This document shows, piece after piece, positions 9,061-27,984 of a DNA stretch of 33,189 nt; the stretch's first letter is position 1, and each line of letters starts with the position of its first letter. The notes below the pieces were generated by a model, which was not told the origin of the DNA, did no database searches, and saw only the letters and a program-made list of their open reading frames with translations. Both the position numbers and the translations under genes were made by a program. The DNA lies in NCBI GenBank assembly GCA_017449025.1, contig JAFSKJ010000011.1:1-33189 (forward strand). Direction: 5' to 3'. This stretch comes from Prevotella sp. Lineage in GTDB: Bacteria > Bacteroidota > Bacteroidia > Bacteroidales > Bacteroidaceae.

Positions 9061-10641
9061 ATGCGACAAAGATTCTTCTATTTATTTGTATTGGCTACGG
9101 TACTTGCCTCTTGCTCTGGAGGCAAGGTGAAGTATCGTATCGGAATATCACAATGTTCGGATGACATTTGGCGCGACAAGCAGAATGCTGAGTTGCGTAT
9201 GGGTGCTTATTTCCATGATAATGTGGAACTGAAGTTTGCTGCGGCCTACGATAGCGACGAGCGGCAGGTGGAGCAGATTGACAGCCTTGTCAACGAAGGC
9301 ATCGACCTGCTCATCGTCGCCCCTAATCAGGTGCAGACCATCTCGCCCGCCATCGACCGGGCTTACGACAAGGGCATCCCCGTCATCGTCTTCGAGCGCA
9401 AGACCAGCTCGCAGAAGTACACCGCCTTCATCAGCGCCGACAACTACGAGATGGGGCGCGTGATGGGAGAGTACATCATCTCACGGCTTCACGGACAGGG
9501 CGCTGTCCTGGAAATTAAAGGCTTAGAAGGCTCGTCGCCAGCTATCGAGCGCCACAACGGCTTCATGGAGGTCCTCAAGAAAGCTCCCGGCATCAAGGTG
9601 GCAGCCTCGCTGCAGGGTGACTGGACAGAGCCCACAGCATACCAGACCACGAAGCAGTGGCTTAACAATAATAAAGAGGTACGCGTAGACTTGGTGTTTG
9701 GAGCCAACGACCGCACGGCGATGGGGGCGAGGAAGGCGATAGACGAGACTTCCCTGCCCTCTTTCCCCACTCCTCTTTATTGCGGCATCGACGGCCTGCC
9801 TGGCGAGAACGGTGGCATTCAGCTGGTTCGCGATTCGCTGCTCGATGCATCGTATATCTACCCCACGCATGGTGATCAGATCATCGACTTAGCCATCCGC
9901 ATCCTCGACGGCAAACCATACGAGAAGGAAACGATGTTGATGTCGGCCCTCGTCACCCGCGACAATGCCAAGGTGCTGTTGATGCAGAGCGAGGAGTTGA
10001 TGCGGCAGGCAGCCCAGTTGGACCAGTTGCACGAAAAGGCCGACAGTTATCTGCACAAGCTTGACGCGCAGCGAGTGGTCAATTGGCTGGCCATTGGCAT
10101 CATCTTGCTGCTGGTGGTAGTGTTCGTGCTCTTCTACCTCTATCATCTTCGGAAAATCAGCATGCAGCGCGAGCGCGTGGTGAACACGTTGTGGAACATG
10201 ACAACCCCGAAAGCCTCCCCAAGCCCCTCCGAAGGAGGGGATGTTCGGATAGATGATGTAACGCAAAACTCCGTCTCAGCTGGTAATCAGACACTCCCTC
10301 CTTTGGAGGGGCTTGGGGAGGCTGATAGCCCTGTTTTCATCACTCGCTTCAAGGAGGTCATAGAGTCACGTTTGGAAGACAGCGATGTGAGTGTGGAAGA
10401 TCTTGCATCCGACATGAACCTCAGCCGCGTACAGCTCTACCGCAAGGTGAAGGCCGTCACCGGCTCATCGCCAGTCGAGCTGTTGCGAACCGCCCGTCTG
10501 AACCGCGCCTACCAGTTGTTGCTCACCACCGACAAGAGTGTCTCCGAAGTAGCCTATGCCGTCGGCTTCACCGCCCCCAGCTACTTCACCAAATGTTTTA
10601 AGGAAGAGTATGGCATGGTGCCGGGCGACGTAAGGAAGTAA
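9061..10641 (+). CDS. Fructan-locus hybrid regulator: sugar-binding domain, TM, AraC; no kinase
   Basis: A 526-residue membrane regulator. It has a lipoprotein-like signal (LASC, Cys18), then a periplasmic sugar-binding domain of the LacI/ribose-binding type (about 24-310: IGISQCSDD, VNEGIDLLIVAPNQ, GIPVIVFER, ISADNYEMGR, FGANDRTAMGA). A coiled linker, one membrane helix (about 342-361) and a C-terminal AraC-type DNA-binding domain (about 430-525) follow. The layout matches the hybrid two-component regulators of Bacteroides fructan loci (BT1754 type), which sense fructose. Here the histidine kinase and receiver, normally about 500 residues between TM and AraC, are missing. In their place is a short linker encoded by an inverted repeat. 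It would therefore act as a membrane-bound one-component activator. It lies directly upstream of susC; fructose sensing is inferred from context. Confidence 0.85.
   Translation: MRQRFFYLFVLATVLASCSGGKVKYRIGISQCSDDIWRDKQNAELRMGAYFHDNVELKFAAAYDSDERQVEQIDSLVNEGIDLLIVAPNQVQTISPAIDRAYDKGIPVIVFERKTSSQKYTAFISADNYEMGRVMGEYIISRLHGQGAVLEIKGLEGSSPAIERHNGFMEVLKKAPGIKVAASLQGDWTEPTAYQTTKQWLNNNKEVRVDLVFGANDRTAMGARKAIDETSLPSFPTPLYCGIDGLPGENGGIQLVRDSLLDASYIYPTHGDQIIDLAIRILDGKPYEKETMLMSALVTRDNAKVLLMQSEELMRQAAQLDQLHEKADSYLHKLDAQRVVNWLAIGIILLLVVVFVLFYLYHLRKISMQRERVVNTLWNMTTPKASPSPSEGGDVRIDDVTQNSVSAGNQTLPPLEGLGEADSPVFITRFKEVIESRLEDSDVSVEDLASDMNLSRVQLYRKVKAVTGSSPVELLRTARLNRAYQLLLTTDKSVSEVAYAVGFTAPSYFTKCFKEEYGMVPGDVRK
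10212..10323. repeat. Inverted REP-like pair inside the regulator gene
   Basis: Arms at 10212-10239 and 10296-10323 match in 27 of 28 positions as inverted repeats, with a 56-nt spacer. Each arm is itself a small hairpin (CCCCTCC-GAA-GGAGGGG on the left). The element is read through in frame as the linker from about residue 384 to 421 (rich in Pro, Ser, Gly), exactly between the membrane helix and the AraC domain. Confidence 0.85.
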
Positions 10642-10660: not shown

Positions 10661-10719
10661 ATCGTTCATTCCGTGGCAAAATTGTTACATTGCAACATAT
10701 TTTGCACGGGATGAACGAT
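10661..10719. promoter_or_regulatory. Long palindrome upstream of susC (operator or attenuator)
   Basis: The segment 10661-10682 and the segment 10699-10719 are inverted repeats with one mismatch and one bulged G. The ends carry CGTTCA (10663-10668) and TGAACG (10712-10717). It lies between the regulator's stop codon and the susC promoter. The same half sites recur upstream of the second GH32 gene. Five T's follow at 10721-10725, so it might instead, or also, terminate the regulator transcript. Confidence 0.6.
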
Positions 10720-10748: not shown

Positions 10749-10757
10749 TACTTTTGC
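10749..10757 (+). promoter_or_regulatory. -7 element of the susC operon
   Basis: TACTTTTGC fits TAnnTTTGC. There is no clear -33 TTTG at the normal distance, which is usual for promoters that depend on an activator. The long palindrome ends 30 nt upstream, and another ATCGTT half-site-like stretch lies at 10741-10746. The leader to the ATG at 10804 is about 40 nt. Confidence 0.55.
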
Positions 10758-10803: not shown

Positions 10804-13800
10804 ATGGAAAGAACAAAGAGATTCCTACTCAGCTTCCTGGCTCTGATGCTATGTACTATAATGTACGCGCAGACGGAGATCACGGGAACGGTGGTCGATG
10901 ATTTCGGTGAAGAAGTCATCGGAGCCACGGTGAAAGAGAAGGGCACTAGCAATGGTGCCGTGACCGATTTCGACGGCAACTTCAAGGTGAAAGTGGCCAA
11001 AGGTGCCACGCTGGTCATCACCTACATCGGCTACGACCCGGTGGAGATGCCTGCCGCCAATGGCATGAAGGTGGAACTGAAGGAGAACGCCTCACAGCTG
11101 GCCGAGGTCGTGGTGACAGGTTACCAGACTCAGCGCAAAGCCGACCTGACCGGTTCGGTGGCTGTGGTAAAGACCGACGAACTGAAGACCTCGTCAGACA
11201 CCGACCCCATGCGTGCCCTGCAGGGTAAGGTGCCGGGCATGACTATCACCTCGAACGGCTCGCCCGTAGGTGCCGGTACCGTCCGCATCCGTGGCGGCGG
11301 CTCGTTCAACTCGTCGCAGGATCCTCTGTTCATCATCGACGGCGTACCCACGACCACCAACCTGAACACGCTGAACATGAACGACATCGAGTCGATGCAG
11401 GTCCTGAAGGACGCCGCCTCGGCCTCTATCTACGGTTCGCGCGCTGCTAACGGTGTCATCATCATCACCACCCGCTCGGGCAAGAAGGGCGACAAGGTGA
11501 AGGTGGACTTCTCGGCCAACCTGACCGCTTCGTTCTATAACAAGCAGACCATGATGGACCTGGCCAATACTGCAGATTATGCTACGGCCATGGCTCAGGC
11601 TGCCATGAACGACGGTCTTGACCCTGAGCAGTATGCCAACAACTATGGCCTGACGCTCAAGGCTGCCGCCGGCACCCCCATCCGTGCCTACGATCCCGCC
11701 ACGGGCCAGATGAGGGAATTCACAGTGAATGGCCGCTACGACGGCTACATGAACCCGACGAAGACCATGCGTTTCAGCGACACCGACTGGCTCGACGAGA
11801 TCTCACGCACGGGCTTCGCTCAGAGCTACGACCTCTCCATCTCCAACGCCACCGACAAGTCGTCGGCCTTGGTCAGCTTCGGCTATAAGAAGAACAATGG
11901 TATCTTGAAGTACACCGACTTCGAGAGTTTCTCCGGCCGCATCAATACCAGCTTCAAGGTAAACAAGATGGTGACCATCGGCGAGAATGCCACCATCACC
12001 TATTCTGACCAGGTGGACTGCGCTCCCCTTGAGAACGCCCTGAAGATGGCGCCCACACTGCCCGTCTATGAAGAGGACGGCGAGACATTCTCCGGTCCCG
12101 TGGGTGGCATGAGCGACCGCCAGAACCCCTTGCGCGAACTCTACCACAACCGCGACAACCGCCTGAAGATGTGGCGCATCTTCGGCAACGGCTATATCAA
12201 CATTCAGCCCGTCAAGGGACTGACGCTGCGCTCCAACTTTGGTCTCGACTACTGGTCGGAGTTCATCCACAGCGTGACCTACACCTGGCACTCTGACGTG
12301 GTAAACAACTCAACCCCGTCGGCCAACCTTGGCAACAAGAACTCCATCAAGTGGACCTGGTCGAACACGGCCAACTATAACTTTAACATCGGTGCCGACC
12401 ACAACTTCATCCTGCTGGGTGGTGTCGAGCTCCACCGCGACGTCGAGGAGCGCTCGTCGGCCTACGCACAGATGTTCGCCCTGGAGAACTACAACTACAT
12501 GTGGCCCGATGCCGCCACTGGCACACAGCGCGCCGGCGGTATCCGCGAGGGTTACAACCTGGTGTCGTTCTTCGGTAAGGCTGACTATAACTGGCGCGAC
12601 CTGGTGCTCGCCTCGTTCACCATCCGCCACGACGGTTCTTCACGCTTCGGCGAGAACAACCGCTACGGTACCTTCCCCGCATTCACGCTGGGTTACCGTC
12701 TCTCCGAGAACCTGAAGATGGACTGGATCAACGACTTGAAGGTGCGTGCGTCTTGGGGTGAGACTGGTAACCAGGCCATCTCCAACTACGCCCGCTACGG
12801 TCTTTATGCCGCTACCTACGGCGGTGGCCGCAACGAGTCGACGGCCTACGACCTGGCACTTGCCGGCAGTGGCATCTTCCCCTCTGGTTTCCGCGCCACT
12901 CAGGCCCAGAACAACAACCTGAAGTGGGAGACCACCGAGCAGTACAACTTCGGTCTCGACTTCACACTCTTAGGCAGCAGCATCTATGGTACCTTCGATA
13001 CTTATATCAAGAATGTGAAGGACATGCTCATCAACCCCGCCTACCTCGGCTCGATGGGTGAGGGCGGCGCCTCGTGGCTCAACGGTCCGAGTCTGCGCAA
13101 CTGGGGTATGGAATTTGCACTGGGCTATCGCGGCACTACCGAATTTGGCCTCAAGTACAATGTGAACGGCAACCTCGACTTCTTCCGCCAGCGCGTGACC
13201 TACCTGCCTGAGACGACAACCGGCTCGTATGTCCACACTGCCAAGGAGAACCTGGTGGAGGCTAAGAAGCCTTACGGCTCGATTGTGGGCTACGTCGTCG
13301 ACGGTCTGTTCCAGAACCGCGAGGAGGTGCTGGCCGCAGGTCAGGAGAACGCCCGCATCGGCGGTCTGAAGTATGCTGACCTCGACGGTAACGGCATCAT
13401 CAACGAGCAGGACCAGACCTGGATCTTCAATCCTGTGCCCAATTTCTCATGGGGTCTGAACATCGACCTGGGCTACAAGGACTTCGACTTCTCGATGTTC
13501 TGGCAGGGTGTTGCCGGTCAGGATGTGTACAACGACCAGAAGTTCCAGACCGACTTCTACTCCATCACCGATGCCGGCTCGAACAAGGGTAACCGCATGC
13601 TCGATGCCTGGACGACGGCCAATACCGGCTCCTGCATCCCCGCACTGACCACCAACAACGTGGGCAATGAGAACCGCGCCTCGACCTACTTCGTCGAGAA
13701 CGGCTCCTACGCCAAGCTCCGCCAGGTGCAGATTGGCTACAACCTGCCCGAGAGCCTGCTGAAGAAGGTGAACATGACCTCAGCCCGCGTCTATATTTCC

Positions 13801-13917
13801 GGCCACAACCTGCTCACCCTGAAGAGCAGCTCCCTCACCTGCAGCGATCCTGAGAATCCCCGTTGGATGTATCCTAACAGCACCAGCCTCTCGTTCGGTA
13901 TCCAGACTTCGTTTTAA
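10804..13917 (+). CDS. susC: SusC/RagA-family TonB-dependent fructan transporter
   Basis: A 1,037-residue outer-membrane protein of normal SusC length. In order: signal peptide (about 1-23, ending YAQ), a carboxypeptidase-D-like regulatory domain (about 24-95, TEITGTVVDDFGEEVIGATV), the TonB box region with VVVTGY (about 102-108), the plug domain (PMRALQGKVPGMTI, VRIRGGGSF, DPLFIIDGVP, SIYGSRAANGVIIITT), and the 22-strand barrel ending in SFGIQTSF with a terminal Phe, as expected for outer-membrane proteins. It imports oligosaccharides released at the surface, powered by TonB, with the SusD lipoprotein as lid. susD begins 30 nt downstream. Specificity for fructan follows from the GH32 and fructokinase genes, not from SusC itself. 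Confidence 0.95.
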   Translation: MERTKRFLLSFLALMLCTIMYAQTEITGTVVDDFGEEVIGATVKEKGTSNGAVTDFDGNFKVKVAKGATLVITYIGYDPVEMPAANGMKVELKENASQLAEVVVTGYQTQRKADLTGSVAVVKTDELKTSSDTDPMRALQGKVPGMTITSNGSPVGAGTVRIRGGGSFNSSQDPLFIIDGVPTTTNLNTLNMNDIESMQVLKDAASASIYGSRAANGVIIITTRSGKKGDKVKVDFSANLTASFYNKQTMMDLANTADYATAMAQAAMNDGLDPEQYANNYGLTLKAAAGTPIRAYDPATGQMREFTVNGRYDGYMNPTKTMRFSDTDWLDEISRTGFAQSYDLSISNATDKSSALVSFGYKKNNGILKYTDFESFSGRINTSFKVNKMVTIGENATITYSDQVDCAPLENALKMAPTLPVYEEDGETFSGPVGGMSDRQNPLRELYHNRDNRLKMWRIFGNGYINIQPVKGLTLRSNFGLDYWSEFIHSVTYTWHSDVVNNSTPSANLGNKNSIKWTWSNTANYNFNIGADHNFILLGGVELHRDVEERSSAYAQMFALENYNYMWPDAATGTQRAGGIREGYNLVSFFGKADYNWRDLVLASFTIRHDGSSRFGENNRYGTFPAFTLGYRLSENLKMDWINDLKVRASWGETGNQAISNYARYGLYAATYGGGRNESTAYDLALAGSGIFPSGFRATQAQNNNLKWETTEQYNFGLDFTLLGSSIYGTFDTYIKNVKDMLINPAYLGSMGEGGASWLNGPSLRNWGMEFALGYRGTTEFGLKYNVNGNLDFFRQRVTYLPETTTGSYVHTAKENLVEAKKPYGSIVGYVVDGLFQNREEVLAAGQENARIGGLKYADLDGNGIINEQDQTWIFNPVPNFSWGLNIDLGYKDFDFSMFWQGVAGQDVYNDQKFQTDFYSITDAGSNKGNRMLDAWTTANTGSCIPALTTNNVGNENRASTYFVENGSYAKLRQVQIGYNLPESLLKKVNMTSARVYISGHNLLTLKSSSLTCSDPENPRWMYPNSTSLSFGIQTSF

Positions 13918-13947: not shown

Positions 13948-15705
13948 ATGAACACCAAGATATATAAGAAGGTAGCCGCCGCTTGTCTCGTTTGCTGCGG
14001 TATCACCGCAGCCCTCACAAGCTGCAACGATTTCATCGACGTCGAGCCGCAGGGCGTCATCAGCGAAGACCTCGCCATGAGTCAGCCCGAAGAAATGGTC
14101 ACCTCGGCCTATGCCAAGCTGGGCGACGACTGGTACACCTATCCATTCAACCTCTGGCCCTACGCCGACGTTTCGTCCGACGATGCCATGAAGGGCGGCT
14201 CGGGTACCACCGACACCAACTACCACCCCGTCGAGGTGTGGTCAACGCTTACTGCATCGACACCCGACCACATGGACGAGCTCTGGTATCACTTCTACTG
14301 CAGCATCTCGCGCTGCAACCGCGCACTCGTGTCGCTGGCCGAGTACGGCAAAGACAAGCTGGGCGAGGAGAAGACCAAGATCCGCGAGGGCGAGGTACGC
14401 TTCCTCCGCGCACACTTCTACTTCAAGCTCGTGCAGATGTGGTACCAGGTGCCCTGGGTCGATGAGGAGGTTTACAAGAACCACAGCGAGGAGCAGACAC
14501 CCAACAACCAGTTCACCCACGAGGAACTGATGGACAAGATTGTGGCCGACTTCAAGTTTGCCTACGACGTGTTGCCCGCACAGCAGAGCGAGGGCGGACG
14601 CGCCAACAAGATTGCCGCTGCTGCCTATCTGGCCAAGTGCTACCTCACCATGGCCTGGGGCGACGGCTACGAGGCCAGCACCGGCGTCAGCCATATCAAC
14701 AGCCAGTACATGCAGGAAGTCCTGAAGTACACCAAGGAGGTTGAAAGCTCGCAGTACGGCTATCTGGAGGACTTCGGCGACATCTTCCTGCCCGAGTACA
14801 AGAACTCCAAGGAGAGCATCTTCGCCGTACAGCACTCTGACTATCAGGATGACAATACGCTCTTCGGCCGCGCCAACTGGAGCAACATGCTGAACGGCTG
14901 CTGGGGCATCTGGTCGTGCGGATGGGACTTCCACAAGCCCACGCAGAACCTCGTCAACGCCTTCAAGACCAGAGACGGACTGCCCATGTTCGACGACTAC
15001 AACAATCAGACGGCTTATCCCGTCAACGGCGTACCCACAGCACAGAAATGGGATCCGCGTCTCTTCCACACCGTCGGCATGCCGACCTTCCCCTACAAGT
15101 ATGAGGCCGAGTACACCATGACCACCGACAACTCGCGCACGCCCAACACCTACGGCTACTACGCCTCGATGAAGGAGGTGCCGCAGCGCTCAAAGGGCGA
15201 GACCTTCGACAACCCCTGGCAGGCTTTCGCCATGAACGACTATGTGCTGCGCTACACCGATGTCATGCTGATGCGTGCCGAGGCCTTGGTAGAGACCGGC
15301 GACCTTGAGGGTGCCCGCACCATCGTCAATGCCGTCCGCCAGCGTGCCAAGAACTCTGTTGCCAAGCACATCGCCTACGCCGCCGACCAGTGCGACATCG
15401 CACTCTATCCCTCCGGCAACTTCGCCTCGAAAGAGAAGGCGCGCCAGTGCGTGCAGTGGGAGCGCCGTCTGGAGCTCGCCATGGAGAGCAACCGCTACTT
15501 CGACCTGCGCCGCTGGGGCGTTGCCTCGCAGACGCTGAACAAGTTCTTCGAGAAGGAGAAGGACGTTGTCTACAACGGACAGACCTACGCCCAGTACTAC
15601 AAGGACGCCCACTACACACCGGGCAAGAACGAGTACTTCCCCCTGCCCTACATCCAGCTCTACTACGTGCCCGGCCTCTACACCCAGAACAAGGGCTACA
15701 ATTAA
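13948..15705 (+). CDS. susD: SusD/RagB-family surface glycan-binding lipoprotein
   Basis: A 585-residue lipoprotein with the lipidated Cys at residue 26 (ALTSC), followed by N-D-F-I-D-V-E-P-Q, typical of SusD proteins. The TPR-like helices of the SusD fold and the RagB C-terminal region are recognisable: VRFLRAHFYFKLVQMW near residue 150, DVMLMRAEALVETGDLEGA near 435 and the C-terminal WERRLELAMESNRYFDLRRWG near 515. It captures fructo-oligosaccharides at the surface and closes over SusC. The gene sits 30 nt after susC and 37 nt before the DUF4960 gene, in one operon. Its signal-peptide coding region is nearly identical over about 22 bases to that of the next gene. Confidence 0.95.
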   Translation: MNTKIYKKVAAACLVCCGITAALTSCNDFIDVEPQGVISEDLAMSQPEEMVTSAYAKLGDDWYTYPFNLWPYADVSSDDAMKGGSGTTDTNYHPVEVWSTLTASTPDHMDELWYHFYCSISRCNRALVSLAEYGKDKLGEEKTKIREGEVRFLRAHFYFKLVQMWYQVPWVDEEVYKNHSEEQTPNNQFTHEELMDKIVADFKFAYDVLPAQQSEGGRANKIAAAAYLAKCYLTMAWGDGYEASTGVSHINSQYMQEVLKYTKEVESSQYGYLEDFGDIFLPEYKNSKESIFAVQHSDYQDDNTLFGRANWSNMLNGCWGIWSCGWDFHKPTQNLVNAFKTRDGLPMFDDYNNQTAYPVNGVPTAQKWDPRLFHTVGMPTFPYKYEAEYTMTTDNSRTPNTYGYYASMKEVPQRSKGETFDNPWQAFAMNDYVLRYTDVMLMRAEALVETGDLEGARTIVNAVRQRAKNSVAKHIAYAADQCDIALYPSGNFASKEKARQCVQWERRLELAMESNRYFDLRRWGVASQTLNKFFEKEKDVVYNGQTYAQYYKDAHYTPGKNEYFPLPYIQLYYVPGLYTQNKGYN

Positions 15706-15742
15706 ATTGATAATTGACAACAGATAATTGATAATTAAAGTT

Positions 15743-17257
15743 ATGAAAAAGATATATCAATTCCTCATCGCTTGTTCCGTATGCTGCTATACCACCGCAG
15801 CCCTCACAAGCTGCCAGGACAAGGACATCGAGCGCGAAGCCATGAAGCTGACGGCTCCCGATGCAGCACAGATAACAGGCCAGTTGAACGGCGACGACTA
15901 CACCTGGACATGGCCCGCACAGCAGGCTCAGATGCAGGTGACCATCTACCGCAACGGGACGCTCTCCTCGAGCGAGACCGTCAGCGGCAACAGCTTCACC
16001 CACAAGAGCGTGCCTACCAACGTACCCTTTGAGTATGTCTTCAAGCTCAAGGATGGCGGCAATCTCTCTACGGGCGTCATCAAGAGCTATATGCGCGAAG
16101 GCGCTACCAGCATCAGCGGTGTCTTCATGGCACAGTTAGACAAGGAAAACGGCTACGATGCCGTCGTGGCCTGGGCCAAGCCTGCCGCCGACGTCACCAG
16201 CGTCATCATCACCTATACCAACGGCGCTACCACCAAGACTCAGGAACTGTCCGGAACTTCCGACCAATTCATCATCCCCGACGTGAAGGACGGCGAGACG
16301 TGGACAGTCAGCCTCGTGGCCAAGAATGCCAAGGGCACCTCGCTCCCCACCTCCTACTCGCTGCGTATCGGTAAGACCGCCATCGGCTTCCTCAGCATCT
16401 ACGCTACACCTGAGCAGCTCGTTGAGCAGGGCGACGACGACGAGGCTTCGGCATGGCTCTGGCTGCACGACACCTACCCCACGGCTAAGTTCGTGCCCTT
16501 CACAAGCATCACTTCCACCGACGTGATTGAGCCCTACCGCGTGCTCTTCTGGCTCCGCGACCTCGAGAACGTCAGCGAAAGCGACGTGTGGAACATCCCC
16601 GCCGACGTCCAGGCTGCTACGCCTTTCATTCGCGAGTGGTACAAGGCTGGAGGCAGCATGCTCCTCTGGAGCCACGCCACCGTCTACGCAGGCCACCTCG
16701 GTCGCATCAACCTCGACGACATGAAGGGCAACGACCACGCCTTCGGCTTCGGTGGTGGCGGTATTAACAACGACGTGTGGAAGATGGCCGTCGAGCTGAA
16801 TCCCGACCACAAGTTCAAGAAGGATCACTCCTCGCATCCCATCTACAAGGGACTCGAGGTGGAGACCACGCCCGACACGAAGCTCATCACCTTCAAGGGA
16901 CCCGGCTGGACTGAGGACCACAACTGCCTATACTTCAACCTGCCTAGCCTCTGGACCGGCATCGGCAATCAGGAGGAGGCTTGCTACGCACAGTGTACAC
17001 AGGTCTACGGCATCTATCTCCTCGGCACCTGGGACAGCCAGATATGGTGGGTCAGCCAGATGAACGTCTGGGAGGCTCAGCAGGGCAACACCGACTTCAA
17101 GGGCACACTGCTCTGCATCGGCAACGGCGGCTGCGAGTTCTCCATGAAGAACGCCGACGGCACGCCCGACAAGAGCGCACACCCGCATAACAACATCTAT
17201 CAGGACAACGTGCTCACACTGGCCAAGAATTCTCTGGAATACCTCAAGACGAGATAA
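15743..17257 (+). CDS. DUF4960 surface glycan-binding lipoprotein
   Basis: A 504-residue lipoprotein (LTSC, Cys24). The ATG at 15743 is preferred over 15728 because it begins the standard MKKIY signal. Residues about 40-210 look like two immunoglobulin/fibronectin-type domains (SSSETVSGNSF, TTKTQELSG, TWTVSLVAKNAKG). From about 215 to the end is a DUF4960 domain rich in Trp (ASAWLWLHDTYP, LFWLRDLENV, GGSMLLWSHAT, GIYLLGTWDSQIWWVSQMNVW). In the B. thetaiotaomicron levan locus the gene at this position (BT1761) has this architecture and binds levan at the surface. It lies between susD and the lipoprotein GH32, fitting a surface complex that holds polymer for the enzyme. Confidence 0.85.
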   Translation: MKKIYQFLIACSVCCYTTAALTSCQDKDIEREAMKLTAPDAAQITGQLNGDDYTWTWPAQQAQMQVTIYRNGTLSSSETVSGNSFTHKSVPTNVPFEYVFKLKDGGNLSTGVIKSYMREGATSISGVFMAQLDKENGYDAVVAWAKPAADVTSVIITYTNGATTKTQELSGTSDQFIIPDVKDGETWTVSLVAKNAKGTSLPTSYSLRIGKTAIGFLSIYATPEQLVEQGDDDEASAWLWLHDTYPTAKFVPFTSITSTDVIEPYRVLFWLRDLENVSESDVWNIPADVQAATPFIREWYKAGGSMLLWSHATVYAGHLGRINLDDMKGNDHAFGFGGGGINNDVWKMAVELNPDHKFKKDHSSHPIYKGLEVETTPDTKLITFKGPGWTEDHNCLYFNLPSLWTGIGNQEEACYAQCTQVYGIYLLGTWDSQIWWVSQMNVWEAQQGNTDFKGTLLCIGNGGCEFSMKNADGTPDKSAHPHNNIYQDNVLTLAKNSLEYLKTR

Positions 17258-17285
17258 TCAGTCACATTCATAGTTACAGTTAGTT

Positions 17286-18851
17286 ATGAAGAAATCAAGG
17301 TTTTTCTTAACTGCAGTGATGGCAGCCGTCGTGATGACGGCTACCATTTCTGCTTGTTCAAGCGATGACCCGAAGCAGGATTACAACCCGCTCATCGACG
17401 ACCCCAAGGAGGAGCAGAAGCCCCAAGTGCCCGACGTATCTCCGACGGGCAGAAACGAGCTCTACCGCCCACAAATCCACTATACGCCCGCCCAGAACTG
17501 GGTCAACGACCCCAACGGTCTGGTCTACGCCGACGGCACCTACCACCTCTTTTACCAGTATAACCCCCAAGGCAACCAGTGGGGCAATATGTCGTGGGGC
17601 CACGCCACCTCGACCGACCTCATGCACTGGACGGAGCAGACTGTAGCTCTCACCCGCGATGAGCTGGGCGCCGTCTTCAGCGGTTCCTGCGTCATCGACA
17701 ACGCCAATACTGCCGGCTTCGGAGCAGGGTCCATGGTGGCACTTTACACCTCAGCCGGCGAAACGGGCGACGTGGCAGGCAAGCAGCAACAGAGCATTGC
17801 CTACAGCACCGACGGCGGACGTAATTTCACGCGCTATGCCAACAATCCCGTCATCAAGAACGACGACGACAACCTGCGCGACCCCAAGGTATTCTGGCAT
17901 GAGCCTACCCACAAGTGGGTCATGGCACTCGCCAAGGGCTGGAAGATGGGCATCGAGTTCTACGGCTCCACCGACCTCAAGTCGTGGCAGCACCTCAGCA
18001 CGTTCCACGTTCCCCTGTTTGGCCGCCCAAGCCTGCAGTGGGAGTGCCCCGACCTCATTCAGATTGGCAACGACTGGGTGCTCCTTGTCAGCGTCAACCC
18101 CGGCGGACCCTTCATTGGTTCAGGCATGATGTACTTCGTCGGACAGTTCGACGGCACTACCTTCACCGCCGAAGACCGCCAGTACCCCCTCTGGCTCGAC
18201 TATGGCATGGACAACTATGCCGGCGTCACCTGGAGCGGCACCGGCTCCCGCCGTATCATGATTGGCTGGATGAACAACTGGTCCTACAGCGGCGACGTGC
18301 CCTGCTCGCCCTGGCGCTCGGCCTTCACGCTGCCCCGCGAACTGGGCCTCACCGAGTACAACGGCCAGAAACTGCTGACGAGCACCGTCGTCAAGGAGGT
18401 TGACAAGATTGCCGCCCAGTGGTCAGAGCGCCTGTCGTTTCTGACGACAGGCGAGACAACCTTCCCCGCCAGCGACGCCTACCAGCTGCGCCTCGTCATC
18501 GGTCTCGACAGGAACACTACGGTCACACTGAGCAACTCGAAGGACGAAAAGTTCGTCTTCGACATCAATGCCGCCGCACGCACGCTCACCGCACACCGCA
18601 CAGCAACATCCGGCCGCACCAACTTCAACGGCAGCTTCTCCATACCCTCGATGCAGGCACCGCTCTCCGTCGATGGCAGCCGGGTGACGCTCGACGTCTT
18701 CGTCGACCAGTCCTCTGTCGAACTGTTCACCAAGGAGGGAACGCTGTCGATGACCAACCTCGTGTTCCCCTCGTCTCTCTACAACCAGCTTTCTGTCAGC
18801 GGAGCCGACTGTGAAGTACAGTTCCGCCCCCTGAACAGCATCTGGAAATAA
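17286..18851 (+). CDS. GH32 fructan hydrolase, surface lipoprotein (endo-levanase/inulinase type)
   Basis: A 521-residue GH32 enzyme. The lipoprotein signal ends ISAC (Cys24), followed by SSDDPK, an acidic tract like the Bacteroidetes surface-export signal, then an acidic, Pro-rich linker. The five-bladed propeller starts near residue 58 and has all three catalytic signatures: nucleophile D75 in WVNDPNG, transition-state D199 in LRDPK, and acid/base E253 in WECPD. A C-terminal beta-sandwich (about 375-521) contains DVFVDQSSVELF. By position and predicted surface location it corresponds to the endo-acting enzyme of the Bacteroides levan locus. Whether it prefers beta-2,6 (levan) or beta-2,1 (inulin) links cannot be told from these motifs. 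It is last in the susC operon; no terminator follows directly. Confidence 0.92.
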   Translation: MKKSRFFLTAVMAAVVMTATISACSSDDPKQDYNPLIDDPKEEQKPQVPDVSPTGRNELYRPQIHYTPAQNWVNDPNGLVYADGTYHLFYQYNPQGNQWGNMSWGHATSTDLMHWTEQTVALTRDELGAVFSGSCVIDNANTAGFGAGSMVALYTSAGETGDVAGKQQQSIAYSTDGGRNFTRYANNPVIKNDDDNLRDPKVFWHEPTHKWVMALAKGWKMGIEFYGSTDLKSWQHLSTFHVPLFGRPSLQWECPDLIQIGNDWVLLVSVNPGGPFIGSGMMYFVGQFDGTTFTAEDRQYPLWLDYGMDNYAGVTWSGTGSRRIMIGWMNNWSYSGDVPCSPWRSAFTLPRELGLTEYNGQKLLTSTVVKEVDKIAAQWSERLSFLTTGETTFPASDAYQLRLVIGLDRNTTVTLSNSKDEKFVFDINAAARTLTAHRTATSGRTNFNGSFSIPSMQAPLSVDGSRVTLDVFVDQSSVELFTKEGTLSMTNLVFPSSLYNQLSVSGADCEVQFRPLNSIWK

Positions 18852-19327: not shown

Positions 19328-21766
19328 ATGAAAATGAAGAAGCTTTTATCTATAGTAACAATGATGCTGTGTACTTACAGCGGCATCACCGCACAGACAA
19401 GCCAGCTCTTTGATGACGGCTGGCAGTTTACGCGCAATGGGAAGACCGTCAGCGTCTGCCTGCCCCACGACTGGGACATCTGCGAGGGGCCTGACCCTGC
19501 TACCGGCGCAACGAAAGAAGGGGGCGGCTGGTTTCCGGGCGGCAAGGGCGAGTACCGAAAGACGTTCGCCACACCGAAAGGCGAGTTGGTAAGACTCCAC
19601 TTCGAGGGCGTTTACCAGCGGGCCGAGGTGTTTGTGAACGGCCAGAAGGCCGGTCAGCATGGCTACGGCTACACGCCGTTCACCGTCGACATCACCCCGT
19701 TCCTCTATAAAGACAAGCGACAGAACGAACTTATAGTGAAGGTTGACAACTCCGGGCAGCCCAACTGCCGCTGGTACTCAGGTTCGGGCATCTACCGCCA
19801 CGTGTGGCTGCAGACGTTGCCGGCCTTGCACCTCGACGAACGCGCCACCCGCATCTGGACGCCCCGTGTAGGCCCTGAGCAGGCAGAGGTACACCTTCAG
19901 GTGGGCATTGAGAACACTGGCCAGCAGGTCCGCCAGATTGACGTCATCGAGGTAACGTTCCTCGGGGGCGACTTCAAGCCCACCCCGCAGTCTGCAGAAA
20001 TGCGGAAGAGCTTCCTTGAGCGGCACAGGCAGTGTCCGCCCAACTCACTGGACTCATATAGCGAGGTCTTTACCATCGCCCAGCCGCACCTCTGGTCGCC
20101 GGACAGTCCCTATCTCTATGAGGCCGTTATCAAGCTGAAGGAGAACGGCCGGGTCACCGACGAGCGGCACATCAAGTTCGGCATCCGTTCATTCTCGTTC
20201 ACGGCCAACAAGGGCTTCGTACTCAACGGCAAGCCGCTGCTCATCAACGGCGCCTGCGTGCATCACGACGACGGCGTGCTCGGTGCCATGGCATTCGATG
20301 CCGCCGAGATCCGTAAGGTAAGGCAGATGAAGGAAGCCGGCTTCAACCTTATCCGCACCTCGCACAACCCCACCACCCGCGCCTTCCTCGACGCCTGCGA
20401 CTCCATTGGTATGCTGGTCATCGACGAGGCTTTCGACGGCTGGCGCTCGGCCAAAACACCGTACGACTACTCAACACTCATCGACTCGTGCTACCGCGAG
20501 GACATCCATGCCATGGTGCTGCGCGACCGCAACCACCCCAGCATCGTCTGCTGGAGCATCGGCAACGAGGTCATCGAGCGCAAGGACATCCGCGTCATTA
20601 CCACCGCCCGACAGCTGAAGAGGGCCATACTCGAGGCCGACGACACGCGCCCCGTGACCGAGGCACTCTGTGCGTGGGACAATGACTGGGAAATCTACGA
20701 CCCGCACGCCGAGGTGCTCGACGTGGTGGGCTACAACTACATGATTCACAAGCACGCCAGCGACCATCAGCGCGACCCCAAGCGCGTGATGTGGCAGACG
20801 GAGAGCTATCCGCGCGATGCCTTCCGCAACTGGGCGCTGACGCAGGACCATCCCTACATCGTGGGTGACATTGTGTGGACGGGCCTCGACTATCTGGGCG
20901 AGTCGGGCATCGGCCGCTACTACTACGAGGGTGAACGCCCGGGCGAGCACTACGTCAGCGGCGGACAGCCCGACTGGCACGGAGCCTACTGTGGCGACGT
21001 GGACATCACGGGATGGAGGAAACCGATAAGCCATTATCGGGAGATGCTGTGGAGAAGCCTCACCCACGACCCCTCTCCGAAGGAAGATGGGAGTATATAC
21101 CTTGCCGTACGCGAGCCCGACGGCTATCGCGGCAAGATCCGTGAGACGGCGTGGAGCGTGTGGCCCACTTGGGAGTCGTGGAACTGGCCGGGCTGGGAAG
21201 GCAAGCCCATCGACGTGGAGGTCTATACGAAAGCCCCCGAGGTCAAGCTCTATCTCAACAACCAGCTCATCGGCACCAAGGCCGTCAGTCGCGAAACGGA
21301 GTACAAGGCCGTCTTCACCATTCCCTACGCCCCCGGTACCCTCCGCGCAGAAGTAACCCTCCCTCACAGGGAGGGGCTGGGGGTGGGTCTTGTGGGTCTC
21401 TCCACCGCCGGCGAGCCTGCCCGTCTGCGCCTGACGCCCGACCGCCGTGTCATCACTGCCGACGGCCAGGACCTCTGCTTTATCACCGTCGAAGCAGTTG
21501 ACAGCGAGGGCCGCGTCTGTCCCGATGCCGCCATCCCCTGCGAGGCCATAGTGAAAGGCCAAGGCAGCTTGATCGCCTTCGCCTCTGCCGACCTAAAGGA
21601 CCGCGAACCGTACACATCGCCCCGCGTCACCACCTGGAAGGGCCGTGCCCTGCTTGTAGTACGCAGCTCTGACAAGCGAGGCCGTGCCCAGGTCAGCATC
21701 AGGAGCAGCCTGCCCACCGCCTCATTAACGATACAAGCCATAAGCCAAGACAACAAGTCAAAATGA
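19328..21766 (+). CDS. GH2 beta-galactosidase-like glycosidase
   Basis: An 812-residue exported GH2 enzyme. A signal peptide (about 1-22, ending ITAQ) precedes the jelly-roll domain (DDGWQFTRNGK, VCLPHDWDI, YRHVWLQ), an Ig-like domain and the catalytic barrel. Acid/base E414 sits in WSIGNEV and nucleophile E492 in WQTESYPRD. Two C-terminal Ig-type domains (DUF4982-like, EVKLYLNNQLIGTKAV; then RLRLTPDRRVITADGQDL) follow. The domain set is typical of Bacteroidetes beta-galactosidases, though beta-glucuronidase or related activity is possible. The 677-690 loop is encoded by a REP-like palindrome, and 'LTHDPSPKEDGS' near residue 580 may be a decayed copy. The GH29 gene starts 9 nt downstream. An ATG at 19334 could be the true start given the promoter's closeness. 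Confidence 0.88.
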   Translation: MKMKKLLSIVTMMLCTYSGITAQTSQLFDDGWQFTRNGKTVSVCLPHDWDICEGPDPATGATKEGGGWFPGGKGEYRKTFATPKGELVRLHFEGVYQRAEVFVNGQKAGQHGYGYTPFTVDITPFLYKDKRQNELIVKVDNSGQPNCRWYSGSGIYRHVWLQTLPALHLDERATRIWTPRVGPEQAEVHLQVGIENTGQQVRQIDVIEVTFLGGDFKPTPQSAEMRKSFLERHRQCPPNSLDSYSEVFTIAQPHLWSPDSPYLYEAVIKLKENGRVTDERHIKFGIRSFSFTANKGFVLNGKPLLINGACVHHDDGVLGAMAFDAAEIRKVRQMKEAGFNLIRTSHNPTTRAFLDACDSIGMLVIDEAFDGWRSAKTPYDYSTLIDSCYREDIHAMVLRDRNHPSIVCWSIGNEVIERKDIRVITTARQLKRAILEADDTRPVTEALCAWDNDWEIYDPHAEVLDVVGYNYMIHKHASDHQRDPKRVMWQTESYPRDAFRNWALTQDHPYIVGDIVWTGLDYLGESGIGRYYYEGERPGEHYVSGGQPDWHGAYCGDVDITGWRKPISHYREMLWRSLTHDPSPKEDGSIYLAVREPDGYRGKIRETAWSVWPTWESWNWPGWEGKPIDVEVYTKAPEVKLYLNNQLIGTKAVSRETEYKAVFTIPYAPGTLRAEVTLPHREGLGVGLVGLSTAGEPARLRLTPDRRVITADGQDLCFITVEAVDSEGRVCPDAAIPCEAIVKGQGSLIAFASADLKDREPYTSPRVTTWKGRALLVVRSSDKRGRAQVSIRSSLPTASLTIQAISQDNKSK
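21357..21390. repeat. REP-like palindrome in frame in the GH2 gene
   Basis: CCCTCCCT (21357-21364) and AGGGAGGG (21368-21375) form an 8-bp hairpin with a CAC loop, followed by GCTGGGGGTGGGTCT. It is translated as LPHREGLGVGL, in a loop of a C-terminal Ig-like domain. The GGAGGGGCTxGGG part resembles the arms in the regulator gene. Confidence 0.75.
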
Positions 21767-21775
21767 AAAGAACAC

Positions 21776-23512
21776 ATGAAACTTCCGTTAATCTTTAGCT
21801 TATTGCTGTTCTCGGCCTTATCGTCTAAAGCCGAAGTAGAGCCATGCGGCCCAGTACCCAGCGAGAACCAGCTGCGCTGGCAGGACATGGAGATGTATGC
21901 CTTCATCCACTACTCGCTGAACACCTATACCGACCAGGAATGGGGCTTCGGCAACGAGGACCTGAAGCTGTTCAACCCCTCCGGCCTCGACTGCCGCCAG
22001 TGGGCTCGCGTCTGCAAGCAGGCAGGCATGCGGGGCATCATCTTCACCGCCAAGCACCACTGCGGCTTTTGTATGTGGCCGAGTTCCTATACGGAGTATT
22101 CCGTCAAGAACACACCGTGGAAACAGGGCAAGGGCGACGTGGTGCGCGAGCTGGCCGATGCCTGCCGCGAGGAGGGGCTGAAGTTTGCCGTCTATCTCTC
22201 GCCCTGGGATAGGAATCATCCTGACTACGGCCGCCCGGAATACATTACCTACTTCCGCAACCAGCTGCGCGAGCTGCTGACACAGTACGGCGACATCTTC
22301 GAGGTGTGGTTCGACGGGGCCAACGGCGGCGACGGCTGGTATGGCGGAGCCAACGAGACGCGCCGCATCGACGCCAAGACCTACTACCAGTGGGCCGAGA
22401 CGTTCCGCATGATCCGTGAACTGCAGCCCCGCTGCGTCATCTGGAACGACGGCGGCGACCGCGGCGACCTGCGCTGGGTGGGCAACGAGGCCGGCAGCGT
22501 GGGCGAGACGAACTGGAGCATGCTCAACAAGGAGGGCAACGTCACGGGCGAGATGCTGCGCTTCGGACTGGAGGACGGCGACTCCTGGGTGGCTGCCGAG
22601 ACGAACACGAGCATCCGTCCGGGGTGGTTCTATCATGAGACGGAGAACGAAAACGTCAAGAGCCTGTCGAAACTGATGGACACCTATTATAAATCGGTGG
22701 GGCGCAACTCCTGTCTGCTGCTGAATTTCCCCATAGCCCCCAACGGCCGCATACACCCCACCGACTCACTGCGCGGCATGGCCTTCAAGAAGATGATTGA
22801 CGAGGTGTTCAGACAAAACTTGGCCTCACCCCCGCCCCCTCTCGCGGGGGAGAGGGGAGTAGTCAGTTATACCCTTGACATCAAGGAGGGGGCTGCCTGC
22901 AACCGCTTTGTGGTCGAGGAGGATATCCGCTACGGCCAGCGGGTTAGGAAGTTCTCGTTGGAGGCTAAAGTCGACGGGCAATGGAAGCCGCTGAAGGACG
23001 AACTGGTGGAGAAGGGCGACGGCCTGACTACCATCGGCCACCGCCGCATCGTCTGCTTCCCAACGGTCAAGGCCACCCGCCTGCGCTTCACCGTCCTCGA
23101 CGCCAAGTGCGCCCCCGTCATCAAGCGCATGGCCGTCTATCTGGCGCCCGACATCAGTCAGAATACACCTGACGCCGGTGAGAAGCATGCGTCAGACTAC
23201 TACATCTTCTTCGGAGCCGACAAGATGATGTTCGTCAACCTGGACAAGGAGGAGACCGTCACCGCTTTCCGCTACCTGCCCCCACAGGACTCACGCGCCG
23301 GACTCGTCACCCACTACCGCATATCGGCCACCACCGACTGGAACCACTGGGAGACGCTGGGCGAGGGCGAGTTCTCGAATATTGTCAACAATCCCATCTG
23401 GCAGACCGTGCGCTGCAAGCCTACCCGTGCCAAAGTCATCCGTGTGGAGGGACTGCGGCTGGCCGAGGGTGAGCGCATGGCCTATAGCGATATAGAGGTA
23501 ATAAAAGAGTGA
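21776..23512 (+). CDS. GH29 alpha-L-fucosidase with C-terminal carbohydrate-binding-like domain
   Basis: A 578-residue exported enzyme. A signal peptide (cut after about residue 20, SSKA) precedes a GH29 barrel (about 25-345) with family stretches MYAFIHYSLNTYTDQEWGFG, GIIFTAKHHCGFCMWPS and FAVYLSPWDRNHPDYG. The nucleophile is D180 in EVWFDGANGG. The remainder (about 365-578) is one or two beta-sandwich domains of the F5/8 or CBM32-like kind found in subfamily B enzymes, which cleave alpha-1,3/1,4-linked fucose. The linker at about 350-362 (ASPPPPLAGERG) is encoded by a REP-like palindrome. It starts 9 nt after the GH2 stop; an ATG overlapping that stop gives only an 11-codon frame. Removal of fucose would expose galactosides for GH2. 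Confidence 0.9.
   Translation: MKLPLIFSLLLFSALSSKAEVEPCGPVPSENQLRWQDMEMYAFIHYSLNTYTDQEWGFGNEDLKLFNPSGLDCRQWARVCKQAGMRGIIFTAKHHCGFCMWPSSYTEYSVKNTPWKQGKGDVVRELADACREEGLKFAVYLSPWDRNHPDYGRPEYITYFRNQLRELLTQYGDIFEVWFDGANGGDGWYGGANETRRIDAKTYYQWAETFRMIRELQPRCVIWNDGGDRGDLRWVGNEAGSVGETNWSMLNKEGNVTGEMLRFGLEDGDSWVAAETNTSIRPGWFYHETENENVKSLSKLMDTYYKSVGRNSCLLLNFPIAPNGRIHPTDSLRGMAFKKMIDEVFRQNLASPPPPLAGERGVVSYTLDIKEGAACNRFVVEEDIRYGQRVRKFSLEAKVDGQWKPLKDELVEKGDGLTTIGHRRIVCFPTVKATRLRFTVLDAKCAPVIKRMAVYLAPDISQNTPDAGEKHASDYYIFFGADKMMFVNLDKEETVTAFRYLPPQDSRAGLVTHYRISATTDWNHWETLGEGEFSNIVNNPIWQTVRCKPTRAKVIRVEGLRLAEGERMAYSDIEVIKE
22828..22860. repeat. REP-like palindrome in frame in the GH29 gene
   Basis: CCCCTCTC (22836-22843) pairs with GAGAGGGG (22850-22857), preceded by ACCCCCGC and followed by AGT. 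The hairpin codes for SPPPPLAGERG in the linker between the catalytic and the beta-sandwich parts. Confidence 0.75.
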
Positions 23513-23516
23513 GACC

Positions 23517-24926
23517 ATGAAAAAGCCTATCATCCTATGCTTTCTGATGTTCGTCAGCATGACGACAAGCGCCATGCCGGAGAAGGAAAATCTGAAACCC
23601 CGCCTCGTGGTGTGTACTGACATCGCGCCAGCTGACGTGGAACCCGACGACATGGAGTCGATGGTCAGACTGATGGCATACGCCGATATGTTCGAGATTG
23701 AGGCCATTATTACGTCGGTGGGCTGGAACTGCGACCCCTACCCCGCTGAATGGGCGCAGTATCTGCACCACGTCATCGAGGCTTACGGCAAGGATGTGAC
23801 GAAGCTGATGCGACGGTCGGGGCAGACGGCGTTCATGCCGTTGGAGAGTGAGGGCCGGCAACAGATCGGCTACTGGCCAAGCGTCGAGTACGTCAGGAGC
23901 CGCGCCGTGATGGGCAGTCGGCATGGCGGCATCAAGGCTATTGGCGAGGGTAATGACTCTGAGGGGAGCCGTCTGCTCATCCGTCTGGCCGACGAAGCCG
24001 ACGAGCGCCCCATCTACGTGGCTGCATGGGGAGGGGCCAATACGCTGGCGCAAGCCATCTGGCGGGTTAAGCAGACACGGAGCGCAGACGAAGTCAGAAA
24101 CTTCGTCAGCAAGTTCCGGCTCTTCACCATCACCGACCAGGACATGAAATACGACATGCGCATGAACCTTGCCTACAGTTCGCACCAGTGGCTACGCAAG
24201 GACTTCCCTGACGACTTGCAGTTTGTCTGGGACGAGGGTGCCTGGCAGGAGCAATGCGAGCTCGGCAAGCAGCACTGGCAGCAGCACAAGGACGGCATAC
24301 AGGAACGTGGCGCCTTAGGCCAGGAATATCCCACCTACAAATGGGGCGTCGAGGGCGACACGCCGAGCATGCTCTTCGTCATGCCAAACGGCCTGAACGA
24401 CCCCGAAGACCCGCGTCAGGCCGGATGGGCAGGCTACCACCAGCGCGGACGCTGCGCCGACTCGCTCACCACGGCCTGGGGCTGCTGGAATGAGCACGTA
24501 CGCGCCATCAGCGTTGGCTATAAGCGACGTTTCTATCCCGACGAGTTCAGCGACTTCCTGGCCCGCATGCAATGGGCTGAGAAGGGCGAGGGCAACCGTA
24601 ACCCGCAGGTCATCATCGGCCGCCACAAGGGTCATCAGCCCATTCATATTGACGCAAAGGCTGGCGATACCGTCCGTCTCGATGCCTCCAAGTCGGCAGA
24701 CCCCGACGGCGACAGCCTCACCTTCCTCTGGTGGCAACAGCCGGAGATTGGTAAGGCGAGAGCCGTCATAGAGCAACCCGATCAGCCGACAGCCATAGTC
24801 CACATCCCTGCCGACGCCCGCGACACCACCATCCACATCGTCTGCGAAGTTCACGACAGCGGACCTTTCCACCTCGTCGCATACCGACGGATTATCATAC
24901 GCGTCACAGACAGCTCAAGCAAATGA
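23517..24926 (+). CDS. DUF1593/Sde182-like nucleoside-hydrolase-fold protein
   Basis: A 469-residue exported protein (signal peptide about 1-19, ending SAMP). The N-terminal two thirds match the DUF1593 (Sde182 nucleoside-hydrolase-like) family: RLVVCTDIAPADVEPDDMESMVR (here residues about 28-50) recalls the Asp-rich metal site of nucleoside hydrolases, and further family stretches are AWGGANTLAQAIW and LFTITDQDMKYDMR. The last 100 residues form an Ig-like domain (DAKAGDTVRLDASKSADPDGDSLTFLWW), as in Sde182-type proteins first linked with cellulose binding. The true reaction of the family is unsettled. It starts 4 nt after the GH29 stop, so it is the third member of the GH2-GH29 cassette. A role in removing or binding a sugar decoration is inference. 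Confidence 0.8.
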   Translation: MKKPIILCFLMFVSMTTSAMPEKENLKPRLVVCTDIAPADVEPDDMESMVRLMAYADMFEIEAIITSVGWNCDPYPAEWAQYLHHVIEAYGKDVTKLMRRSGQTAFMPLESEGRQQIGYWPSVEYVRSRAVMGSRHGGIKAIGEGNDSEGSRLLIRLADEADERPIYVAAWGGANTLAQAIWRVKQTRSADEVRNFVSKFRLFTITDQDMKYDMRMNLAYSSHQWLRKDFPDDLQFVWDEGAWQEQCELGKQHWQQHKDGIQERGALGQEYPTYKWGVEGDTPSMLFVMPNGLNDPEDPRQAGWAGYHQRGRCADSLTTAWGCWNEHVRAISVGYKRRFYPDEFSDFLARMQWAEKGEGNRNPQVIIGRHKGHQPIHIDAKAGDTVRLDASKSADPDGDSLTFLWWQQPEIGKARAVIEQPDQPTAIVHIPADARDTTIHIVCEVHDSGPFHLVAYRRIIIRVTDSSSK

Positions 24927-24943
24927 ACCATCCAACCATGTTA

Positions 24944-25010
24944 GCTTTTACCCGGCGGGTAGAGGGGCTGAACCCGGCGGGTAGAGCCCCTCAACCCGGC
25001 GGGTAAAAGC
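24944..25010. repeat. Nested palindrome with three 22-bp-spaced ACCCGGCGGGT units
   Basis: ACCCGGCGGGT occurs at 24950, 24972 and 24994, exactly 22 bp apart. GCTTTTACCCG (24944-24954) pairs with CGGGTAAAAGC (25000-25010), and GAGGGGCT (24962-24969) pairs with AGCCCCTC (24985-24992), giving a long cruciform-capable hairpin. It lies between the DUF1593 gene and the second GH32 gene. Confidence 0.8.
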
Positions 25011-25028
25011 GAAATAAATAGCAATAAT

Positions 25029-25067
25029 CGTTCAATGACATGGAAAAATGTTTCATTGAACGTTTTT
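25029..25067 (+). terminator. Terminator-like hairpin, also carrying CGTTCA/TGAACG half sites
   Basis: CGTTCAATGA (25029-25038) and TCATTGAACG (25053-25062) are a perfect 10-bp inverted repeat with a 14-nt loop, followed by six T's from 25063 (counting within CGTTTTTTC). This is a good terminator for the GH2-GH29-DUF1593 operon. The outer CGTTCA/TGAACG ends are shared with the palindrome before susC, so it may double as, or instead be, a regulator site. Confidence 0.65.
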
Positions 25068-25114: not shown

Positions 25115-25123
25115 TATTTTTGC
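25115..25123 (+). promoter_or_regulatory. -7 element of the GH32-permease-fructokinase operon
   Basis: TATTTTTGC fits TAnnTTTGC and lies about 35 nt before the ATG at 25158. No -33 TTTG is found at the usual distance, as at susC, suggesting an activator-dependent promoter. GAAGG lies close before the start codon. Confidence 0.55.
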
Positions 25124-26810: not shown

Positions 26811-26816
26811 AGCAAT

Positions 26817-27980: not shown

Positions 27981-27984
27981 AACT

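Follow-up and report, generated by a model that had tools for sequence, protein, structure and literature searches.

Introduction

One-component regulators are usually regarded as the ancestors of two-component systems. They have also been described as more ancient (PMC5936718). In Bacteroides thetaiotaomicron, the fructan PUL is served by BT1754 (HTCS_Fru), reported to be the only HTCS of that organism with this type of sensor, and all the HTCSs identified by Ravcheev et al. are described as having sensor, kinase, receiver and AraC domains, with motifs whose spacing averages 21 bp (PMC3878776). Some described regulators depart from this scheme. SusR is presented as a membrane regulator with a periplasmic sensor (PMC3878776), and CadC acts from the membrane by dimerisation through a disordered linker of about 50 residues (PMC5936718). 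BT4236 carries Gln at the phospho-His position, for which a phosphorylation-independent mechanism has been suggested (PMC11253607); this suggestion is the nearest published hint that we found to the case described here, but in that altered-relay HTCS the relay domains are still present. In Segatella copri, no HTCS gene is reported to have been seen next to the inulin PUL (PMC11784079).

Here we analyse a gene from a 33,189-nucleotide stretch of Prevotella DNA, the whole of which is called the window below. Its product, the short regulator, resembles BT1754 in the family and fold of the sensor, in the TM, in the C-terminal AraC domain and in its position beside a fructan PUL, and differs from it in that BT1754 is an HTCS with kinase and receiver (PMC3404733, PMC3878776), of which the short regulator has none. 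The 21-bp spacing of its boxes is that of HTCSs generally, BT1754's own motif standing outside the comparison. With the SusR type, as described in PMC3878776, it shares a periplasmic sensor and a cytoplasmic DNA-binding domain in one membrane protein, but the sensor is another one and the predicted SusR boxes are 67 or 77 bp apart instead of 21. By analogy, it may also be likened to CadC and ToxR for the single TM, the periplasmic sensor, the disordered linker and the proposed action at the membrane (PMC5936718); on the other hand, these proteins have an N-terminal winged-helix domain, which is absent here, where an AraC domain (HTH_18) lies at the C-terminus and the sensor is of the sugar-binding-protein kind. 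Moreover, the genome of the window encodes three Reg_prop proteins (L210:3022-5031, L211:2046-4463, L212:2160-4667) that carry an AraC domain but lack relay domains, and that have in common with the short regulator the order of sensor, hydrophobic stretch (by eye) and AraC domain, but whose sensor is a beta-propeller. XylR of Escherichia coli is soluble and cytoplasmic, whereas a TM helix lies between sensor and AraC domain in the short regulator.

Of the features of an HTCS, the periplasmic sensor, the TM, the AraC-type domain and a direct repeat with a spacing of about 21 bp at the presumed target promoter are all present, and HisKA, HATPase_c and the receiver are found neither by Pfam nor by phmmer. 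Since the three defining domains are absent, the short regulator is not an HTCS by membership, but is derived from one and set before HTCS-type sites; its make-up, with sensor, TM and DNA-binding domain in a single chain and no relay, is that of a membrane-integrated one-component regulator. Searches of open-access literature listed no description of kinase-less relatives; subscription papers were mostly outside this scope, and a prior description is possible.

Domain Organisation of the Short Regulator and Its Locus

The ORF of 526 aa at 9061-10641 (+) starts with ATG and contains no internal stops. Pfam places Peripla_BP_4 at residues 51-285 (1.5e-45) and HTH_18 at residues 448-526 (3.5e-22), each together with related families that overlap it, and finds no HisKA, HATPase_c or Response_reg in the 526-aa protein at E <= 0.001; phmmer, queried with the three relay domains from L058, which is a full-length relative, found no match in the same protein at E <= 1e-4 either. 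The parts of the gene and the genes presumed to be under its control are as follows.

9061-10641, + strand: kinase-less SBP-TM-AraC regulator (ORF; Pfam; full-length genus matches of similar frame length, 61-83% identity)
9103-9114, + strand: lipobox-like LASC, with Cys18 invariant in alignments A1 (17 rows) and A2 (39 rows)
9133-9966, + strand: periplasmic sugar-binding domain of the BT1754/2x7x type, residues 25-302 (phmmer, Foldseek, omega)
9967-10194, + strand: single helix, residues 303-378, from the sensor through the membrane, TM at about 342-360 (AlphaFold2 monomer model, hydrophobicity)
10168-10197, + strand: junction motif RERVVNTLWN, residues 370-379 (motif counts, side-by-side listing)
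10198-10329, + strand: tether of about 44 residues, mostly disordered (pLDDT < 50 at 380-419; omega)
10211-10330, + strand: dispersed palindromic repeat, in frame in the tether (genome search with 10200-10335)
10330-10638, + strand: AraC-type DNA-binding domain, residues 424-526, with HTH_18 at 448-526 (Pfam, omega)
10804-13917, + strand: susC, presumed target (TIGR04056)
13948-18851, + strand: susD, DUF4960/fn3 protein and GH32 of the presumed target operon (Pfam)
25158-28869, + strand: GH32, MFS transporter and PfkB kinase, presumed second target operon (Pfam)

The solved structure closest to the sensor is the periplasmic domain of BT1754, both by sequence, 2x7x_A being the best PDB match (residues 25-340, 270 bits, phmmer), and by fold, 2x7x taking ranks 1 and 2 in the Foldseek search with the monomer model (42% identity). 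Residues R113, R164, N216 and D244, which we take to lie at the sugar site from RbsB numbering, agree with 2x7x in the alignment. We infer that the sensor would bind fructose. The AlphaFold2 monomer model was obtained from an alignment of 39 sequences, namely the window's protein and 38 other short forms, and has a mean pLDDT of 86.7. In this model, the helix of residues 303-378 is unbroken and includes the membrane span, for which residues 342-360 are the most hydrophobic stretch within 290-440, and it is followed by residues 380-419 with pLDDT < 50. Across the short forms, 42-84 residues lie between the TM stretch and the DNA-binding domain. A strict lipobox regex matches 71 of 80 ORFs, and Cys18 may lipid-anchor the periplasmic end, in which case the sensor would be anchored at one end and membrane-spanning at the other.

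To compare the constraint on the different parts, omega was calculated pairwise between the window's gene and ten short orthologues; the values, which are rough because most synonymous distances are near or above 1, were 0.034-0.135 for the sensor (residues 24-330; 7 of 10 pairs computable), 0.033-0.100 for the DNA-binding domain (8 of 10) and 0.40-1.18 for the tether (4 of 10). The sensor and the DNA-binding domain are under purifying selection and the tether much less so, and, with omega well under 1, a loss of function of the short regulator is rejected. As for the repeat in the tether, the query 10200-10335 gave 23 matches in the genome of the window, two of which are the window itself, the rest being at 12-13 other places; the tethers of two relatives (L032 and L049) have proline-glycine-rich stretches similar to the repeat-bearing tether of the window.

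The initial annotation had read the gene as a sensor, a TM and an AraC domain only, without kinase or receiver, with both ends intact and placed directly before a susC operon. The absence of relay domains from the Pfam and phmmer searches and the purifying selection acting on both domains bear out this reading. The stop codon of the regulator is 162 bp away from susC. Further along the window, the stretch 19328-24926 between two GH32 genes contains a GH2, an alpha-L-fucosidase and a Sde182-like gene, which are unexpected in a fructan PUL.

Recurrence of the Short Form and Classes of Relatives

A relative at E <= 1e-40 was found in 103 of the 150 genomes of the genus sample, and many of the relatives, among the matches listed for the genus, are open frames of about 500-570 aa with 61-83% identity over the full length. 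The scan of named genomes was evaluated for the best 80 of 583 loci, which favour short forms because they are ranked by likeness to the window; these 80 are titled Prevotella, Prevotellaceae, Bacteroidaceae or Bacteroidales, many are from ruminant samples, and isolates such as P. ruminicola KHT3 are included. The complete chromosome of P. communis E15-14 carries the short form (L159; checked by Pfam). At the level of the order, a match was obtained in 44 of 393 genomes. Sorted by frame length and counted by hand, the 52 rows listed from outside the genus comprise 38 frames of at least 800 aa, 7 of 671-736, 6 of 519-581 (one with a stop) and one 315-aa piece; in a domain scan of five of the short ones, from three families (f30, f42, f111), all five have sensor and AraC domains and no relay domain. 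No relay domain was detected by Pfam in 10 of 10 short forms scanned.

All 49 candidates were scored in the assembly of the window (about 81% complete), where a single place matches the sensor, and five other genomes (G117, G061, G055, G094, G098) have one match each at E <= 1e-40 with at most 9 candidates scored per genome; in G117 (one contig) and G061 (two contigs), with 9 candidates scored in each, the short form is the only relative at this threshold. In three further genomes (G034, G138, G059; L078-L083), three relatives of different classes occur within one fructan region.

Loci were selected on frame length, with a view to covering the classes, in 68 of the 103 genomes with a match (our own count, window's included), so that the class counts given here are not frequencies. 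They provided 80 classified ORFs with the sensor. Two of these are short fragments, L042:13975 and L082:19321, which stop ahead of any relay and were excluded from the 39 short forms and from the sensor tree. In phmmer searches with the domains of the full relative, all the 39 complete short forms, window's included, were unmatched by ATPase, DHp and receiver; a second class, which we call intermediate, matched the DHp (HisKA) and the receiver, but not the ATPase (26/26); the full forms, of 878-949 aa, matched all three relay domains (13/13). The intermediate regulators (L038-L057, L071-L073, L079, L081, L083) are of 715-800 aa, with one of 613 (L073) cut by the contig end, and Pfam reports HisKA and Response_reg without HATPase_c in the 12 of 12 that were scanned. 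Despite the missing ATPase, none of the 25 aligned intermediates has lost the DHp His or the receiver Asp, and in 6 of them the residue following the DHp His is Gln. Adjoining one intermediate regulator there is a 387-aa ORF (L057:4520-5683) with HATPase_c as its sole Pfam domain type, and two longer ORFs with HATPase matches are near another (L050).

The initial annotation had proposed a survey of homologues and had noted that, if all of them had the kinase, the gene would be a one-off deletion or an assembly collapse. The survey gave a different picture, since the same architecture, lacking all three relay domains, recurs in 39 of 39 complete short forms and is present in the complete chromosome (L159). 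The ATPase-less intermediate class, the promoter boxes common to the classes and the disordered tether go beyond what that annotation had noted. Recurrence across the genus and the complete chromosome rule out both an assembly collapse and a one-off deletion. The short regulator is real and conserved, and it is probably functional.

Putative Operators and Promoters

Upstream of the two presumed target operons, the following elements were recognised.

10662-10718, + strand: putative operator, a 57-bp dyad with TCGTTCA and TGTTACA, starts 21 bp apart, inverted on the - strand as TCGTTCA and TGTTGCA
10749-10756, + strand: -7 element TACTTTTG of the susC promoter (spacing to the operator; consensus)
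25028-25063, + strand: second putative operator, in short-dyad form, the right arm with one mismatch
25115-25122, + strand: -7 element TATTTTTG of the second promoter (25122 being the last base of the composite match)

The consensus of the -7 element is TAnnTTTG, and TACTTTTG comes 30 bp after the 57-bp dyad. Three copies of acccggcgggta are found at window 24949-25012, just upstream of the second operator.

The gaps between regulator and susC were inspected in 53 regions, 27 ORFs without a nearby susC start being left out of the count. The dyad is present in 28 of 33 gaps of short forms, 7 of 12 of intermediate and 6 of 8 of full forms, as against 4 of 1060 mononucleotide shuffles, and the box pair in 28/33, 9/12 and 6/8, respectively, as against 1 of 1060 shuffles. 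Four of the five short regions that miss the dyad are from a second short clade of about 40% identity, described below, and the fifth belongs to a fragment; the intermediates miss it in five, two of them (L083, L079) in the same ~40% clade, and the full forms in L064 and L059. The dyads occur in two geometries, either of 56-57 bp with the -7 element at 30-31 bp, or of 35-36 bp with the -7 element at 51-52 bp, and by our own count 37 of 41 dyad regions fit one of the two, the others being L035, L048, L051 and L076. Thus, the spacing of left box and -7 element is 86-88 bp in both geometries, and it is the right arm that shifts, by 21 bp or two helical turns.

The exact composite of boxes and -7 element occurs at only two sites in the 3.5-Mb assembly of the window (about 81% complete), at 10662 and at 25028, the latter preceding the GH32-MFS-PfkB operon, with 0 matches for the reversed control. 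Among 22 related genomes of our choice, 25 composite matches were found in 17, with 0 in the control; all are on regulator-bearing contigs, a co-location that is trivial for the one-contig genomes G117 and G024. The positive genomes include some with the full form (G024, G137, G004) and with the intermediate form (G127, G131), and the exact composite is absent in 5 of the 22, three with short (G034, G106, G061) and two with intermediate forms (G070, G086). Downstream of the named-record ORFs, the composite was found in 54 of 78 cases and the boxes in 60; the boxes are absent from the other 18, some of which have other genes there, and from all the 81 in-ORF controls. A chance origin of the operator is rejected on the shuffles, the reversed patterns and the in-ORF control. 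Looser patterns behave differently: the loose dyad alone is non-specific, with 3 genome places vs 2 for the reversed control, and the loose box pair (<= 3 mismatches) has 9 matches in the window vs a shuffle mean of 4.8, 4 of 100 shuffles having as many, so that only the exact composite with boxes and -7 element is enriched. Whether or not they have a relay, the regulators seem to recognise one kind of site, and the comparison suggests that the relay is dispensable without any change in the DNA site.

Origin of the Short Form

We read the motif RERVVNTLWN as a fusion of the juxtamembrane helix with what looks like the last part of receiver helix 5, LKNLW in the intermediates. It is present in 78 of the 80 named-record ORFs (at least 55% identity; best 80 of 583) and in 28 of 41 short ORFs, two of which are fragments, and in none of the 26 intermediate and 13 full forms. 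In the second short clade (~40% identity), the DHp helix is still there at its beginning, with NEEQ.LFYT in most members, and further distinct junctions are those of the L074/L077/L037 group, of L075 and of L076. Because the junctions differ, we read them as several separate deletions, the junction readings being our own.

As for the trees, the two built on the sensor were quick and had SH-aLRT support only: the first (78 rows), which carries a long-branch warning, requires 9 changes of the short label, 7 of them forced by starred branches, and the one with outgroups requires 10, 8 of them forced. The tree of the DNA-binding domain (73 rows, few columns), from which seven ORFs without the box motif were left out, requires 5 changes, 3 of them forced. 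Change counts alone give no direction. Once relatives from other families are added, it is the full form that proves widespread beyond the genus, and in the outgroup sensor tree most short and intermediate forms fall within a single starred group, the base of which is occupied by full forms. The main short clade arises from intermediates in the sensor trees and stands apart, with 29 rows, in the tree of the DNA-binding domain, where the short forms of the ~40% clade are nested among intermediates. A single origin of the short form fits poorly to the sensor trees and to the DNA-binding-domain tree, the evidence being weak or mixed. Moreover, the two kinds of tree disagree on L037, L033, L035 and L036, which suggests that domain recombination may have exchanged sensor and output halves; given this disagreement, only several origins are claimed. 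Taken together, trees and junctions point to a repeated, independent loss of the relay in the short form.

A further trace was sought in the receiver-facing acid, the D of the S/CHIP-DK motif (PMC11253607), whose position was derived here from a spacing of 39 residues. Outside the ~40% clade, the acid is mostly missing from the main-clade short forms, with the position acidic in 5 of 29, against 21 of 22 among the intermediates and 13 of 13 among the full forms, and its loss in 24/29 main-clade short vs 1/22 intermediate forms gives a Fisher p of 1.3e-8, uncorrected for kinship. In a wider reading, the position is acidic in 24 of 76 short forms. Because the acid is kept in 9 of the 10 short forms that do not belong to the main clade, we use it as supporting evidence only; loss of receiver contact, as judged from this residue, is not uniform among the short forms.

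Proposed Mechanism and Alternative Explanations

We think it quite likely that the short regulator is a membrane-anchored, ligand-gated one-component activator of the fructan genes, derived from a BT1754-type HTCS by deletion. The deleted part would be the whole stretch that followed the juxtamembrane helix, up to where the receiver domain ended. Fructose released from fructan would bind the sensor in the periplasm and alter the pairing of two chains through the continuous helix, which ends just inside the membrane; the two DNA-binding domains, on their flexible tethers, would thereby be held together and would bind, ahead of the promoter, the pair of boxes with the 21-bp spacing, so as to activate transcription without phosphorylation and without leaving the membrane. 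In HTCSs, the DNA-binding domains are reported to be restrained by the receiver until phosphorylation, and the same source recalls that transcription is activated when fused dimerisation domains bring two AraC domains next to each other (PMC11253607). Removal of the receiver removes this brake, so that control in the short form would lie elsewhere, most simply in the pairing of the chains. We infer, by analogy with CadC, that the continuous helix, the conserved junction and the free tether would fit a closeness of the DNA-binding domains set by the sensor. The dimerisation step is a guess, because a disordered tether cannot transmit a rigid movement and the model is that of a monomer. Against the proposal as a whole speak the uneven loss of the receiver-facing acid, the lack of boxes downstream of 18 of 78 named-record ORFs and the lack of an exact composite in 5 of the 22 chosen genomes.

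A different way to reach the operator would be for proteolysis, within the tether or the TM, to set the DNA-binding domain free from the membrane under the same signal. A long disordered tether would be easy to cut, but its sequence is unconstrained in the pairs computed, the conserved motif sits in the helix at the membrane face with no known cleavage signal seen in it, and CadC, formerly thought to be cleaved, is reported to act uncut (PMC5936718); release by cleavage is, in our opinion, unlikely. A slightly less improbable role is that of a repressor or placeholder, with the apo-protein on the operator and relief by fructose, to which we concede a small chance. Loss of the receiver removes the brake, and the DNA-binding domain may bind unstimulated; BT2391, an HTCS off the consensus motif, is cited as a repressor in the same work (PMC11253607), and the 57-bp dyad could bind two dimers. 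However, the operator lies upstream of the -7 element like the site of an activator, with 30 or 51 bp between its right arm and the element in most regions, and BT1754 is described as required to induce its PUL (PMC3404733).

The short regulator could also be conceived as an accessory subunit that works only as part of a heterodimer, its partner being a full-length regulator or another one, or as phosphorylated in trans, as the three relatives in one region of G034, G138 and G059 might indicate. Nevertheless, it has no phosphoacceptor domain left, and the sensor has a single match in the window's assembly (about 81% complete) and one each in G117, G061, G055, G094 and G098 (<= 9 candidates scored per genome); we consider such a role very improbable, and in the particular case of a partnership with a full-length paralogue the single sensor matches in the window's and other genomes lead us to reject it. 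Finally, nothing but the shorter length speaks for a decaying remnant or an assembly collapse, an explanation that is contradicted by the conservation throughout the genus, by the complete chromosome and by omega well under 1, and to which we give practically no credit.

Significance

Returning to the ligand-gated activator derived by deletion, we lean towards a broader reading, in which the HTCSs of fructan loci repeatedly became one-component regulators, partly via a surviving intermediate that lost the ATPase alone, with operator and promoter geometry remaining fixed. If this is true, sensor-controlled pairing of tethered AraC domains would suffice for the same sites, and the phosphorelay would be an optional layer. 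Close relatives that are alike in sensor, DNA-binding domain and operator occur with the full relay, with half of it or with none, so that the contribution of phosphorylation is testable by swaps of natural proteins at one promoter. Surveys of PULs that require kinase domains will overlook such regulators, and the short regulator offers a compact candidate for a fructose-sensing activator in gut Bacteroidota.
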